A stretch of 64,000 nt of DNA from Pseudomonadota bacterium. Its GTDB lineage: Bacteria > Myxococcota_A > UBA796 > GCA-2862545. The notes under the pieces were generated by a model. That model saw only the letters and a program-made list of their open reading frames with translations. It made no database searches and was not told the origin of the DNA. Of the stretch, positions 23,702 through 29,794 are shown one piece after another. The DNA is taken from assembly GCA_023954855.1 (NCBI GenBank), contig JAGSGY010000003.1:62001-126000 (forward strand). Reading direction: 5' to 3'. The translations under genes were made by a program, and so were the position numbers. Position 1 is the first letter of the stretch. Every line of letters starts with the position of its first letter.

Positions 23702-24163
23702 TCAGCGTGTCTCGTCGACGATGTCGTAGGCGATGATCGCCTCCCAGGCGGCGAACTCTGCGCCACCACCCACCGGGCTGTCATAGTCCGAGTGGTTGTT
23801 CTGCTGCAGGCTCACGCGCAAGTGGACCTCGTTCGCGCTGTCGAGGTTCGGGCTGTCACCCGGGGCATGCGTGACCTGGTGGGAGAGAGCCTCGGGTGAG
23901 CCGATGTGTTCGTTCTCGAGCGAGATGTGGTAGTGGCCGACGCCGTCGATGGGCTCTGTACCGGCCAGATCGTGGTCAAAGTCCATCCCGTCAATGTCGA
24001 CCACCACGAGGAAGTCGATCGTTCCGTCCGCTTGCCGGATCAGCGGCTCATCTGCAGGGGGGTAGAGCAGTTCGATCGACGGCTCGATCGCTGAGCCAAG
24101 GTCCACTGCATCCGGGGCAGGGCACGCCGCGAGCAGCGGCAGGGCTACGAAAAGGCTTCGCAT
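23702..24163 (-). CDS. Lipoprotein of unknown function, kinase operon
   Basis: Start chosen at ATG 24163, giving a 153-residue lipoprotein with MRSLFVALPLLAACPAPDAV (lipobox LAAC). The open frame extends much further 5' but that part reads as non-coding and is antisense to the Rieske gene. The mature part is acidic and His-containing, including VGHYHISLEN, EALSHQVTHAPG and LRVSLQQNNHSDY, and resembles a beta-sandwich ligand or metal-binding domain; I cannot name the family. It directly precedes the Ser/Thr kinase gene, so it may be an outer-membrane or periplasmic sensor component for it (inference). Confidence 0.78.
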   Translation of the reverse strand: MRSLFVALPLLAACPAPDAVDLGSAIEPSIELLYPPADEPLIRQADGTIDFLVVVDIDGMDFDHDLAGTEPIDGVGHYHISLENEHIGSPEALSHQVTHAPGDSPNLDSANEVHLRVSLQQNNHSDYDSPVGGGAEFAAWEAIIAYDIVDETR

Positions 24164-24257
24164 GTTTGGGCACTCCAAGACGCACATTCTCACACACGCT
24201 CTAGGCCGTCGCTGGCTTCGGATCGAGGGGAAGGGTAGAAACTTGGCCGGAGACGCA

Positions 24258-24707
24258 ATGACCACGCTTCGAGACCTGCTTCGACTTCTTGTGAAAGGAC
24301 GTCCCGACGGACTCCGACACCGGTGGGTCTGGCGATGGCTCAGGACCGCCGAACCCACAAACGAGGTCGACAGAGCGCCGGTCACGGCCACGTCGGAGGC
24401 AGGGCTCGGCGAGCTACTCTGTCGGCTCGACGATCTCGCGGACGGTGAGGTCATCGAGGTCATGGTGGACGGTCGGCCTCTCGCGGTGTGCCGCGTTGGC
24501 GATGACGTATTCGCGGTGGATGGCACCTGCCCGCATGCGGGGGGCGCTCTCGCGGACGGCCAACTGGAGGGAAGCGTTCTCACTTGCCAGAGCCATGGCT
24601 GGTCCTTCGACGTGGTGACCGGCGATTGCGAGATGGACGACGAAATGTGCGTAGAGCGCATCCCCACCGTCCTCTCGAATGGCGAAGTGCGCTTGATGGA
24701 GCAGTAG
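24258..24707 (+). CDS. Rieske-type [2Fe-2S] protein
   Basis: Start chosen at ATG 24258 (MTTLRDLLRLLVKGRP), after a GGAGA; the frame is open further 5' but antisense to the lipoprotein start. The 149-residue product has the Rieske cluster-binding boxes CPHAGG and CQSHGW (CxH...CxxH) at about residues 90-115. The spacing and short length fit soluble Rieske ferredoxins such as dioxygenase ferredoxin components or NirD. No oxygenase or nitrite reductase gene is nearby, so the partner is unknown. The N-terminal ~40 residues are basic and Trp-containing (RHRWVWRWL) and could be membrane-associated. Confidence 0.9.
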   Translation: MTTLRDLLRLLVKGRPDGLRHRWVWRWLRTAEPTNEVDRAPVTATSEAGLGELLCRLDDLADGEVIEVMVDGRPLAVCRVGDDVFAVDGTCPHAGGALADGQLEGSVLTCQSHGWSFDVVTGDCEMDDEMCVERIPTVLSNGEVRLMEQ

Positions 24708-24816: not shown

Positions 24817-26160
24817 ATGGGCTCTGACCCGTCTTCCGTTTCGCCATCGCGCGAAGGGGCCGACCCAGGCCATGCCCGGTTGGCTTTGGAGTGTGTTGGC
24901 CCCGTCGATTCTGTGGTGCACCTTAGGGATGGCATCGTCGCCGACGTGCGTGGTCAGCTCGTACACACCCAAGCCGGTGCGACACTTGAGTCTCTGTTCG
25001 ACCCATCCGAGTCTGCTGCCGTAGCCGTTGCCCTTGGTCGAGGGTTTGTGGGGGCGAACGATCGCGTCTGGCGCCTGGCGGATGGATGCCGCGCGCTGCT
25101 GACGGCCGAGAGGCTGCACGATCGTTGGTGCATTGGCTTCCGCGACGTCACGGCGCTCGAGGCGGTCCGTGGCGAGGAGCGAAGGAACGCTCAGTCTGCA
25201 GCGTTGGCGGCACTGGCTGCCTCTGTCGCCGCGGAGCTCGCCACGTCAGTGAACGTGGTCGAAGGGCGACTTGAGCTCGCGCTTGAGATGTACCCCGACC
25301 TTCCCCCCGGGCTGGTCACGCAGCTCAAGATCGCCCTCGCGCATACACGTGAGATTAGCGGCAATACGCGTGCGCTCCGATTGGTAGGGCATCAATCCCT
25401 GGCTACGACAGCGTCCACAGCTCTTCACACCCTTATGGAGGGGGCGTGGACGGCAGCGGCGCCCCGCATGAAGGGAGCAGAGCGTACGGGCAGCATCCTC
25501 AGCACCCTCCTTGTAGGTGCCGAGCAACAGCCACTCACCCGTGCGCTCATCCACCTGCTGGTCGTTCTCGCCGATGAACCGAAGCGTGTCATTCACGTGG
25601 ACGCGAAATCCGACGGCGACGGCGTGATGATGCGTCTGAAGAGGCCGGGAGCCACCCGGGGAGGCAACCCTTTTGGCGAGTCCAGGGGCTTCGCGTTTTC
25701 GGTCGCACGGGGCCTGATCGAAGGCCTCGGTGGCGGCGTTCAGGGCTCGATCGCCTCCGACTCGGTGACTCTGACCCTTCGGCTTCCGCTCCCATCGAGA
25801 ACTCGCGCTCGCGCGAGGCGAGGGGAGGAAAGGGTGCTCATTGTGGGGGCCCCAGAGCTGCCAGACGTGCTCGCGCCAGTCCTTGAGCCAGAGGGCTTCC
25901 ATCTCGAGTGGGTCGCATCCGGGGACGAGGCGCTCGACCGTCTCGCCGGTGGTGGGCTAGCGGGCGTGGTCACCCAGTTGGTGCTTCCGGGCTGCTCCGG
26001 TGCCGCACTGGCGCGCCAGGTCGTGCGAGAAGGCGGCCCACCCGCGGTGATCCTCTGTCACGAGACCATGGCCTGTCTGCCGTCAAGGATCACGGTCCTC
26101 GCCCCGCCGGTGGCCCGTGGTCCGCTGCTTCGTGCGCTTGGGCGCCGGGTTCGTCCCTAG
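24817..26160 (+). CDS. Hybrid histidine-kinase homologue lacking catalytic residues
   Basis: ATG 24817 lies 6 bp after GGAGG. The 447-residue protein follows a PAS-DHp-HATPase-receiver plan but has lost the chemistry. A PAS-like region (~20-115) ends in GFRDVTALEAVRG. The DHp helix reads AALAASVAAELA (131-142), with Ala139 where the phospho-acceptor His of VAHE belongs. The N-box region LTRALIHLLVVLAD (240-253) lacks the ATP/Mg-binding Asn. The G2-like segment is GFAFSVARGLIEGLGG. The C-terminal receiver-like domain (~338-447) has LIVGAPE instead of the acidic pair and VVTQLVLPGCSG with Gln387 at the phospho-Asp position. A regulatory or scaffold pseudokinase is inferred. No transmembrane segment was seen. 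Confidence 0.8.
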   Translation: MGSDPSSVSPSREGADPGHARLALECVGPVDSVVHLRDGIVADVRGQLVHTQAGATLESLFDPSESAAVAVALGRGFVGANDRVWRLADGCRALLTAERLHDRWCIGFRDVTALEAVRGEERRNAQSAALAALAASVAAELATSVNVVEGRLELALEMYPDLPPGLVTQLKIALAHTREISGNTRALRLVGHQSLATTASTALHTLMEGAWTAAAPRMKGAERTGSILSTLLVGAEQQPLTRALIHLLVVLADEPKRVIHVDAKSDGDGVMMRLKRPGATRGGNPFGESRGFAFSVARGLIEGLGGGVQGSIASDSVTLTLRLPLPSRTRARARRGEERVLIVGAPELPDVLAPVLEPEGFHLEWVASGDEALDRLAGGGLAGVVTQLVLPGCSGAALARQVVREGGPPAVILCHETMACLPSRITVLAPPVARGPLLRALGRRVRP

Positions 26161-26177: not shown

Positions 26178-26203
26178 ACAAAAAGCCCGCACGAAGCGGG
26201 CTT
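26178..26203 (-). terminator. Rho-independent terminator of rpmB
   Basis: Read on the minus strand, AAGCCCGC (26203-26196), the 5-nt loop TTCGT and GCGGGCTT (26190-26183) form a perfect 8-bp stem followed by a T tract. It lies about 35 bp after the rpmB stop. It may also help end rightward transcription from the kinase homologue. Confidence 0.85.
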
Positions 26204-26235: not shown

Positions 26236-26472
26236 CTAGAAGCGTGCGAGGTCCAGGCCAGACTGCTCGGCGAAGACCGAGAGGCCCTTCTTGTCGATGG
26301 TGCGAAGCGCACGGGTCGACAGACGAAGCGTCACGAAACGCTCGCCCTCTTCCCACCAGACGCGCTTGCGCTGCAGGTTGGGCAGCTGACGCTTCTTGGT
26401 CTTGATGTTGGAGTGGGAGACCTTGTTCGCGACGTTGGGACGCTTACCGGTCAGGATGCACTTGCGGGCCAT
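26236..26472 (-). CDS. rpmB: 50S ribosomal protein L28
   Basis: A 78-residue protein with the L28 signatures MARKCILTGKRP, VSHSNIKTKKRQLPNLQ and FVTLRLSTRALRTIDKKG. The length is normal. Only one cysteine is present, so it is of the C-minus (non-zinc-binding) type. It is followed by a clear terminator and preceded by a 118-bp gap that includes an imperfect hairpin (26536-26558, stem CGTCGGC/GCCGACG) with no T tract. Confidence 0.97.
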   Translation of the reverse strand: MARKCILTGKRPNVANKVSHSNIKTKKRQLPNLQRKRVWWEEGERFVTLRLSTRALRTIDKKGLSVFAEQSGLDLARF

Positions 26473-27686: not shown

Positions 27687-28460
27687 TTGGCCCTTGTACT
27701 GACGCAGACGGAAGATGGCGTATGCACACTCACCCTCAACCGCCCCGAGCGACGCAACGCACTGTCCTCTGGCCTTATCGACGCCATTCACGCCGGCCTT
27801 GACGATGCGGAGGCCGACACCGAGGTGCGCGCGATCGTGCTCACCGGCGCTGGAAAGGGGTTCTGCGCTGGCGGCGACCTCGCGGGAGGCATGGCTGGCA
27901 AAGCCTTTCTAGAAGGGCACCGCTCACGAGGTCGGTACGCGGAGTTGCTTGGACGCATTCCACGCTGCGAGAAGCCGGTTGTGGCCGCCGTCAACGGCGA
28001 CGCGCTCGGCGGTGGCCTCGGGCTGGTCGCGGCCTGTGACCTCGCGATCGCGGATCCGCGTGCGCGGTTGGGCACACCCGAGATCAAGGTCGGTCTGTTT
28101 CCGTGGATCATTCTCGCGCCGCTGCAGCGCCACGTCGGTCGCAAGGCTCTGATGGAGCTCGTCCTTACCGGCGAGCGCGTCTCTGCCGACCGGGCGCTCG
28201 AGCTTGGACTGCTCAATCGCTTGAGTGAGGAGGGCCAAGCACTTGCGGACGCTCAGGCACTGGCCCGGGTCGTAGCCAGTCGCTCGCCCGCGATTGTCGC
28301 CCTCGGAAAGAACGCGTTCGCTCGGGTGGCGGACATGGCCTACGATGATGCTCTTGCGTACCTGCACACGCAGCTGACCGTGAACCTCCTCACCGAGGAC
28401 GCCGCCGAGGGTATCGGGGCGTTCTTACAGAAGCGGGAGCCCAATTGGAAAGGCCGGTGA
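27687..28460 (+). CDS. Enoyl-CoA hydratase/isomerase family protein
   Basis: TTG start at 27687 is chosen because GGAGG (27678-27682) sits 4 bp upstream and it gives the usual crotonase N-terminus (ALVLTQTEDGVCTLTLNRPE); a GTG at 27660 is possible. The 257-residue protein has the CoA-binding/oxyanion segments GFCAGGDL and NGDALGGGLGLVAACD and the conserved GTPEIKVGLFP. One of the two catalytic Glu positions of hydratases (in the NG.a.GGG..l block) is not obvious, so isomerase or another crotonase activity cannot be excluded. Overlaps by 4 bp (GTGA) with the biotin-carboxylase homologue, implying a shared pathway such as acyl-CoA catabolism. Confidence 0.9.
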   Translation: MALVLTQTEDGVCTLTLNRPERRNALSSGLIDAIHAGLDDAEADTEVRAIVLTGAGKGFCAGGDLAGGMAGKAFLEGHRSRGRYAELLGRIPRCEKPVVAAVNGDALGGGLGLVAACDLAIADPRARLGTPEIKVGLFPWIILAPLQRHVGRKALMELVLTGERVSADRALELGLLNRLSEEGQALADAQALARVVASRSPAIVALGKNAFARVADMAYDDALAYLHTQLTVNLLTEDAAEGIGAFLQKREPNWKGR

Positions 28461-29794
28461 TCAAGCGCGTTCTCATCGCAAACCGCGGCGAGATCGCACG
28501 GCGCCTCATTCAGTTCTTCAAGGATCGCGACATCGAGACGGTCGCGGTGTTCTCCGAGCCCGACGTTGACCAACCCTGGGTTGAGGAGGCCGACTACGCG
28601 GTCTACTTGAACGGGCGCACGGTGGCCGAGACCTACCTAAATGCGGATCGAGTTGTCGCGGCGGCAATGGATTCGGCCGTAGATGCCATCCATCCCGGGT
28701 ATTGCTTTCTTGCCGATCGGCCCGAGTTCTACGCCCTGACGGACGCCGCGAATCTGTTCGTGTACGGCGCAGGAAGCTCGTTGCTGTCGGTTGCCGGGGA
28801 CCGCTTGGCCGTTCGAGAGGCGGGCCGTGAGCTCGGGCTCGACGTGGTTCCTGGTTCGGATGTGCTCACCAACGAGAGCGACCTGGTTGCCGAGGCCGTC
28901 GCGGTGGGCTTTCCGCTCTACGTTAAGGCCCAGCACTCCAGTCGGGCTCGGCGTGTTGAGGCCCTCCAAGACCTCCCGGCCGCCCTCACGAGCATGCAGG
29001 AAGAGAAGCTCGATGGGCTATTTCTCGAGCGCGCCATCGATCGACTTCGCTACGTAAGCGTCGTGGTCGTGGGCGATGACGAGATCGGCTCCATGCCCCT
29101 CGGCGCCGTAGAGTCTTCGGTTCGGGTGCGGCAGCAAACCTGGGTCGAAGAGCTGGGTCCAGAGGTTGTCGAAGGGGACCTAGGCTTGGGCCTACAGGGA
29201 GCCTCGGTAGCGCTCGCAGACCAGCTCGAGTGGCGCGGCGTGGGTCGCGTTCGTTGGGCCCTTTCAGGGGGGACAGCCTTTCTTATTGGCTTCACCCCGC
29301 GTCTTCCTACTGGCTACTCGCTCACCGAGGCCGTTCATGGACTTGACCTACTCGAGGTCCAGCTGAACACGATCAACGGCCAGCACCTTGGGTGGGGGCA
29401 CCTCGACACGCAGCCCACCCGACAGGGACTGCAGCTTCGCCTCATCCATGGCGATGCCGACGGTGTGCGGACCGAGGGCACCCTCTCGAACTTCACGCTT
29501 CCCCAGTCCGAGGGGGGACTGCTGGTCGAGACGGGACTTGAGGCCGGCCTGCTCTTGGGGCCGGACACCGAGCCCTTGCTCGCCAAGATCACGGTCCTCG
29601 CCCCGACGCGTCAAGCGGCCATCGTCAAGGCACGCTCTGCGCTCGCCAAGGTCGAAGTCGAAGGGGTGGCGAGCAACCTCGAAGCGCTGCACGCGCTGCT
29701 CGAGGACATGGCGTACTGGGAGGGCGAGGTGGATCTCGACACGCTCCCTCGCATTCTCCGCGGCCTTTCAGAGGGATCTGCCGCCGCGACCTGA
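28457..29794 (+). CDS. Biotin-carboxylase homologue with lost catalytic motifs
   Basis: GTG 28457 overlaps the hydratase stop (GTGA); an in-frame TTG at 28445 is an alternative. The ~445-residue protein starts like a true biotin carboxylase (KRVLIANRGEIARRLIQFF) and keeps DAIHPGYCFLADRPEF. However, the ATP-grasp glycine loop GGGGRGM of AccC reads HSSRARR, RRHQK reads VRQQT, and EMNTRLQVEH reads GFTPRLPTGY, followed by SLTEAVHGLDLLEVQL. ATP and bicarbonate chemistry is therefore probably absent. The canonical AccC in this same window (52296-53645) retains every motif. A regulatory or structural partner, or a repurposed ligand-binding protein, is inferred. Confidence 0.83.
   Translation: MIKRVLIANRGEIARRLIQFFKDRDIETVAVFSEPDVDQPWVEEADYAVYLNGRTVAETYLNADRVVAAAMDSAVDAIHPGYCFLADRPEFYALTDAANLFVYGAGSSLLSVAGDRLAVREAGRELGLDVVPGSDVLTNESDLVAEAVAVGFPLYVKAQHSSRARRVEALQDLPAALTSMQEEKLDGLFLERAIDRLRYVSVVVVGDDEIGSMPLGAVESSVRVRQQTWVEELGPEVVEGDLGLGLQGASVALADQLEWRGVGRVRWALSGGTAFLIGFTPRLPTGYSLTEAVHGLDLLEVQLNTINGQHLGWGHLDTQPTRQGLQLRLIHGDADGVRTEGTLSNFTLPQSEGGLLVETGLEAGLLLGPDTEPLLAKITVLAPTRQAAIVKARSALAKVEVEGVASNLEALHALLEDMAYWEGEVDLDTLPRILRGLSEGSAAAT

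Follow-up and report, generated by a model that had tools for sequence, protein, structure and literature searches.

A family-conserved hybrid histidine kinase homologue that appears catalytically dead in both its kinase and its receiver half

The window, the whole 64,000 nt stretch of DNA analysed here, carries a gene for a protein that is predicted to fold as a PAS-DHp-CA-receiver hybrid histidine kinase and has none of the residues needed for phosphotransfer, an architecture already proposed in the initial annotation and borne out by AlphaFold2 and by alignment to an intact paralogue. We consider this pseudokinase, with a probability of roughly 55%, to be a selected, catalytically dead descendant of a NosP-type kinase that acts by docking through its DHp dimer, without phosphorylation. 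Pseudo-histidine kinases and pseudo-receivers are already known; a hybrid kinase with both halves inactive and family-wide conservation appears to be new, and we found none in the part of the literature covered. The mode of action of bacterial pseudo-receivers has been called a mystery, and attention is only now turning to pseudo-histidine kinases (PMC12632262).

Results

Lost catalytic residues in an open reading frame

The gene forms an uninterrupted frame of 447 aa from the ATG at 24817 to the TAG at 26160, with a GTG one codon earlier (24814), a Shine-Dalgarno sequence, GGAGGGAA, just 5′ of the start and a position-specific GC content of 0.75/0.54/0.71. Codon bias and the strong Shine-Dalgarno had been put forward as an argument for selection; these alone would not prove it. 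An artefact or sequencing error was ruled out, as 10 other genomes have an open frame at the locus with the same residues absent.

Residues were assigned by alignment to G000:C145 (L002), an intact hybrid kinase encoded in the same genome. Ala139 occupies the phospho-acceptor His position and Val250 the N-box Asn column, G1 (DxGxG) is absent with its loop deleted, and G2 reads ESRGFAFS. In the receiver, the columns of the acidic pair hold Val343-Gly344, or Gly344-Ala345 if the strand is shifted by one residue, with no acid either way, and the loop at this site is one residue shorter than in the intact paralogue. The phospho-Asp is replaced by Gln387, the Lys by Pro430, and the Thr/Ser column is non-hydroxyl (Cys in one alignment, His415 in the alignment to the intact paralogue). 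The initial annotation had named the Ala139 and Gln387 substitutions, the missing N-box Asn and acidic pair and the eroded G2 box, and each of these holds. Neither the phospho-His nor the ATP-binding N, G1 and G2 boxes of HisKA kinases are present, and the acidic pair, phospho-Asp, Thr/Ser and Lys of PF00072 are likewise missing. The protein qualifies as a pseudo-histidine kinase, that is, a homologue lacking at least one kinase function by sequence, and its C-terminal domain as a pseudo-receiver, a receiver fold without the key catalytic residues (PMC12632262). Loss of the His alone affects 0.9% of HisKA domains and loss of the Asp 2% of receivers (PMC12632262). Among the 11 family members described below, no conserved substitute phospho-His or Asp was found elsewhere in the domains; His176 in helix 2 was rejected as an alternative, being Gln in the congener and not conserved in G020 either.

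Table 1 Positions of the pseudokinase gene, its domains and substituted residues, and its neighbours in the window.
Feature	Position	Strand	Basis
Rieske [2Fe-2S] protein gene, upstream syntenic partner (longest ORF from 24162)	24258..24707	+	Pfam Rieske, E 6.8e-17
Pseudo-hybrid histidine kinase gene (PAS-DHp-CA-REC), 447 aa	24817..26160	+	ORF list, Pfam, AlphaFold2, Foldseek
PAS-like domain, residues 32-111	24910..25149	+	AlphaFold2; 28% identity to congener, dN/dS 0.68, least constrained
DHp helices, residues 113-191	25153..25389	+	AlphaFold2; dN/dS 0.22, most constrained
Ala139 codon at phospho-His position	25231..25233	+	Alignment to intact paralogue
CA (ATPase-like) domain, residues 200-323, without N-box Asn (Val250), G1, G2	25414..25785	+	AlphaFold2, alignments
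Pseudo-receiver domain, residues 338-440	25828..26136	+	AlphaFold2, sub-threshold Pfam match
Val343-Gly344-Ala345 replacing receiver acidic pair	25843..25851	+	Alignment; Val-Gly invariant in 11/11 family members
Gln387 codon at phospho-Asp position	25975..25977	+	Alignment; Glu in 6/11 family members
Pro430 codon at receiver Lys position	26104..26106	+	Alignment
C-terminal ALGRRVRP, Arg-rich motif gained in the family	26134..26157	+	[LM]GRRVR in 8/11 family members
Terminator-like hairpin between pseudokinase and rpmB	26183..26203	-	Sequence
rpmB (ribosomal protein L28), downstream syntenic marker	26236..26472	-	Sequence; same neighbour across the order

Predicted fold

AlphaFold2, run as a single chain on the window protein with six homologues, returned a PAS domain, DHp helices, an alpha/beta CA domain and a (beta-alpha) receiver, with a mean pLDDT of 74.7 and a low pTM of 0.35. 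The top Foldseek matches to this model were PAS/LOV histidine kinases, with ShkA among the hybrid kinases; matches to PAS/LOV kinases, ZraS and RetS had a probability of 1.00 with a TM-score that was low over the full length, probably owing to a different domain arrangement. A profile of the family searched against PDB sequences matched ZraS, ThkA and receivers. The DHp-CA fold of HisKA kinases and the receiver fold are therefore both predicted by the structural check that had been suggested. The suggested HMM check succeeded only for the receiver, and there below threshold (18.5 bits versus a cut-off of 30.2, E 0.0024), while HisKA and HATPase_c gave no Pfam match in the pseudokinase. Of the claim that fold and length persist, the predicted fold stands and the length in part: with 447 aa the pseudokinase is shorter than the intact paralogue (531 aa) and is missing the N-terminal coiled coil as well as the lid region of the CA domain. 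Judged by eye, the protein is apparently soluble.

A family without the catalytic residue set

The window family (f1) comprises the window genome (G000) and G001, G003, G005, G008, G009, G010, G011, G017, G018 and G020, from seven genera; the congener, G001, shares 44-46% identity with the window protein. The named records for six members are MAGs labelled Deltaproteobacteria or Proteobacteria, one of them mislabelled. L078 (CAMCWU010000018.1) is titled Klebsiella pneumoniae and holds the locus with the neighbours seen in the family MAGs, so that its label is probably wrong.

In a tree of the syntenic kinases the family forms one clade with 100/100 support and a long stem. The His column holds A, R, G or K in 11/11 members, and the N-box Asn, the acidic pair and the Lys are absent from all of them, with Val-Gly invariant at the acidic pair. 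At the phospho-Asp column we found Glu (six members), Gln (one), Ala (two) or Asp (two), and the two with Asp lack both the acidic pair and the Lys. The orthologue comparison called for at the outset thus uncovered no member retaining the catalytic residue set, and a lone pseudogene with intact orthologues was ruled out, the family's syntenic relatives all being inactive.

Other positions are strictly kept. Invariant in the DHp helices, in an alignment of nine members, are Glu140, Gly150-Arg-Leu152, Leu154, Ala173 and Arg188; Glu140, which adjoins the dead His position, is invariant in the family. The members also gained a basic, Arg-rich linker before the receiver and a C-terminal [LM]GRRVR motif that all the other syntenic kinases and the canonical kinases compared lack; the 16 C-terminal residues carry a net charge of +4 to +6 in 10/11 members versus -3 to +3 elsewhere. 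In G008 the PAS region of the pseudokinase (L038, 2011-2205, + strand) matches better in another frame, as if by two compensating indels.

Purifying selection

Ratios of dN/dS were calculated by NG86 with a codon bootstrap. The pseudokinase gave 0.40 (0.29-0.52) for the window and its congener, below 1 in the test of selection that had been proposed, and 0.42 (0.33-0.54) for G018 and G009, both values being approximate because dS is above 1 (near saturation). In these two pairs the DHp helices had the lowest ratios (0.22 and 0.27) and the PAS domain the highest (0.68 and 0.56), and with 0.68 (0.38-1.13) between window and congener the PAS domain is nearly unconstrained. The f5 pair G024-G033, also without the His, N-box and receiver residues, gave 0.32 (0.25-0.40), with the CA domain lowest at 0.22. 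For the intact paralogue of G000 and G001 the ratio was 0.27 (0.22-0.36), and the pseudokinase evolves faster than this paralogue in the same two genomes (44% versus 63% identity). Neutral drift of the window frame at 0.5-1.0 substitutions/site would be expected to introduce 6-8 in-frame stops; there are none in any of the 11 frames. These codon comparisons indicate that the pseudokinase is under purifying selection, strongest in the DHp helices. Of the initial description as a repurposed, selected pseudo-two-component protein, "selected" is upheld by dN/dS and the open frames; "repurposed", in the sense of a new function, is something we infer, because the PAS domain is nearly unconstrained and 6/17 family loci are without the gene.

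Origin from a FIST-linked kinase locus

Throughout the order, the genes at this locus are arranged as Rieske ferredoxin, a NosP-like FIST gene, the hybrid kinase and rpmB. The Rieske gene was detected at E ≤ 1e-35 in 51/63 genomes of the order and in 0/8 others of the class. FIST and kinase genes are adjacent in G008 (f1), G031 (f3), G036, G039, G046, G048 and G050 (f4) and G040 (f5), and an ancestral-type FIST gene tested against the NCBI NosP model scored E 1.2e-59, under the model's cut-off. In G039 the coding sequence of the syntenic kinase (L122, 5363-7071, - strand) is broken into two overlapping frames; the frameshift behind this could be genuine or could stem from the assembly.

Within the family, Rieske and rpmB genes both flank the kinase at 7/11 loci; Rieske alone is found in G009 and G018 (the latter locus lying near a contig end) and rpmB alone in G003 and G010. 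The FIST gene is absent from 10/11 of these loci, and the only one left, in G008, is eroding (FIST_C below threshold). For FIST INDEPENDENCE, the only gene of the window genome is that of the intact pair at G000:C145. A FIST gene stands next to the kinase at ancestral-type loci such as those of G046, G048 and G036 and not at the window locus. From synteny and homology, the pseudokinase appears to descend from a FIST (NosP-type) sensor-linked hybrid histidine kinase. A constant FIST partner encoded elsewhere is unsupported: the assemblies of G005, G010 and G017 (90-94% complete), all keeping the pseudokinase, gave no FIST match. The intact paralogue was likewise set aside as a heterodimer partner, because the two do not co-occur consistently across the genomes, although the MAGs are incomplete.

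The kinase gene itself has been deleted at 6/17 f1 loci: in G004, G006, G013, G014, G016 and G019 the Rieske and rpmB genes are direct neighbours, separated by gaps of no more than ~140 bases, which points to clean deletion. No kinase was found at any f2 locus recovered. The function of the pseudokinase would thus be dispensable in some species.

Two features of the surroundings may be added. The rpmB gene faces the kinase in G000, G001, f3, f4 and f6 and has the same direction as the kinase in the other f1 genomes having rpmB, its orientation having flipped within f1. Divergently upstream of the Rieske gene lies a small putative lipoprotein gene (23702-24200, - strand, LLAAC signal), with similar genes in G005 and G017.

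Repeated loss of the chemistry across the order

Outside f1, 13 syntenic kinases with readable motifs were compared. The His is kept in 5/13 (G025, G034, G044, G031 and G040) and has elsewhere given way to A, V, C, Q, Y, N or R, depending on the lineage; the N-box Asn is kept in 2/13 (G031 and G040). Eight of the 13 have a complete receiver (acidic pair, Asp, Lys), and a ninth, G050, has the acidic pair and Asp on a contig that ends before the rest. With regain allowed, the fewest changes on the tree are four for the His, three for the N-box, five for the receiver Asp and three for the Lys; with irreversible loss, the His needs about six losses, by a hand count on a tree with weakly supported deep forks. 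The kinase is dead and the receiver intact in f4 and in G037 of f6, the receiver is dead and His and Asn are kept in G031 (f3) and G040 (f5), and both halves are dead in two f5 members and all of f1. Kinase-first and receiver-first losses both occur, and therefore there was no single order of loss.

A more far-reaching reading, which we think possible and on balance doubt, is that a complete hybrid two-component protein, staying at the same chromosomal site, became throughout a whole family a regulator that needs no phosphorylation, with a newly conserved Arg-rich linker and tail and with Val-Gly fixed where the receiver's acidic pair stood. On this reading the chemistry disappeared in several independent events within the order, and phosphotransfer may have been unnecessary for the selected function of the cassette since early in the order. 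The value of the locus lies in its graded states (kinase dead, receiver dead, both dead, deleted), with an intact FIST-kinase paralogue to compare; on this series one can test in which order the chemical steps were lost and what each loss costs, and those surfaces that stayed conserved once all chemistry was gone point to the role of the fold without phosphate.

Discussion

The ancestral cassette, in which a hybrid kinase accompanies a NosP-like FIST gene, resembles NosP-NosK, and an intact pair of this type persists in the window genome at G000:C145. In Pseudomonas, the NosP-associated kinase is NahK. The window locus differs in that the FIST gene is gone, a Rieske gene lies upstream, and kinase and receiver are unable to carry phosphate, whereas NosP inhibits an active kinase (PMC12570481). 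The pseudo-receiver is like other aspartate-less receivers in lacking the acidic pair, Asp, Thr and Lys, and the Glu at the Asp position in 6/11 f1 relatives recalls plant and fungal pseudo-receivers; unlike pseudo-receivers generally, it is fused to a kinase that is also dead.

The pseudokinase probably exerts its function through contacts with other proteins and not through catalysis. It would still dimerise through a folded DHp, keep a CA-like shell and have its receiver locked without phosphorylation. The preserved DHp surface might dock another two-component protein, either a receiver (as in DivL) or a kinase (as in RocA), and bias the activity of this partner, while contacts would be set by the pseudo-receiver together with the newly gained Arg-rich linker and tail, and the FIST sensor would no longer be needed. 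Docking through the DHp surface is favoured because known pseudokinases of this class, DivL and RocA, act by contact. RocA acts in this way on CovS (PMC7380576), as does the kinase RetS on GacS (PMC12148439); RocA works through its transmembrane domains, whereas the window protein looks soluble.

The main rival, in view of a gene that part of the family does without and a PAS domain nearly free of constraint, is slow decay: output was lost, and the cassette, with little or no function left, is being deleted lineage by lineage under relaxed selection. The clean deletions, the lack of a kinase at the recovered f2 loci, the faster evolution relative to the paralogue, the near-neutral PAS domain, the eroding FIST gene of G008 and the different replacements of the dead His would all fit. 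We nevertheless regard such a relic as unlikely, since dN/dS is clearly below 1, both for the protein as a whole and for its DHp, CA and REC domains, all 11 frames have stayed open across saturated dS, and an invariant Val343-Gly344 and a C-terminal motif are new.

Less probable still is a sensor reversed in the manner of DivL of Caulobacter, with the DHp helices binding a specific, perhaps phosphorylated, response regulator and the signal being relayed to another kinase. DivL, a sensor of a phosphorylated regulator, is a PAS-DHp-CA protein that kept the DHp fold after the same kind of His loss (PMC4211667), and these helices are the most conserved part of our family. However, DivL retains a conserved Tyr as well as its N, G1, F and G2 boxes, whereas the window protein has lost all boxes and adds a pseudo-receiver, and no receiver or regulator gene adjoins the pseudokinase.

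The positive C-terminal charge and the [LM]GRRVR motif could instead point to a binder of nucleic acids or anionic surfaces for which the kinase fold is merely a dimeric scaffold. We give this little credence: G003 is without the motif, drift at high GC favours Arg, and the basic patches may simply touch acidic protein surfaces. A phosphatase-only kinase, still dephosphorylating a regulator through the (E/D)xx(T/N) phosphatase motif that follows the H-box His, is very improbable, as Glu140-Leu-Ala-Thr143 of the window protein and ELAN of its congener fit ExxT/N but 9/11 members have Asp at the T/N position and the CA domain, the usual gate of this activity, is without ATP motifs.

Near this putative docking protein, a biotin-carboxylase homologue (window 28445-29794, + strand) also looks catalytically dead: its glycine-rich loop for ATP, which reads AGGGGRGM in intact paralogues, has become shorter, and IGFTPRLPTGY takes the place of EMNTRLQVEH. 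The copies that G001, G003 and G011 carry in the same block show losses of this kind, and the homologue looks like a second conserved pseudo-enzyme close to the pseudokinase.
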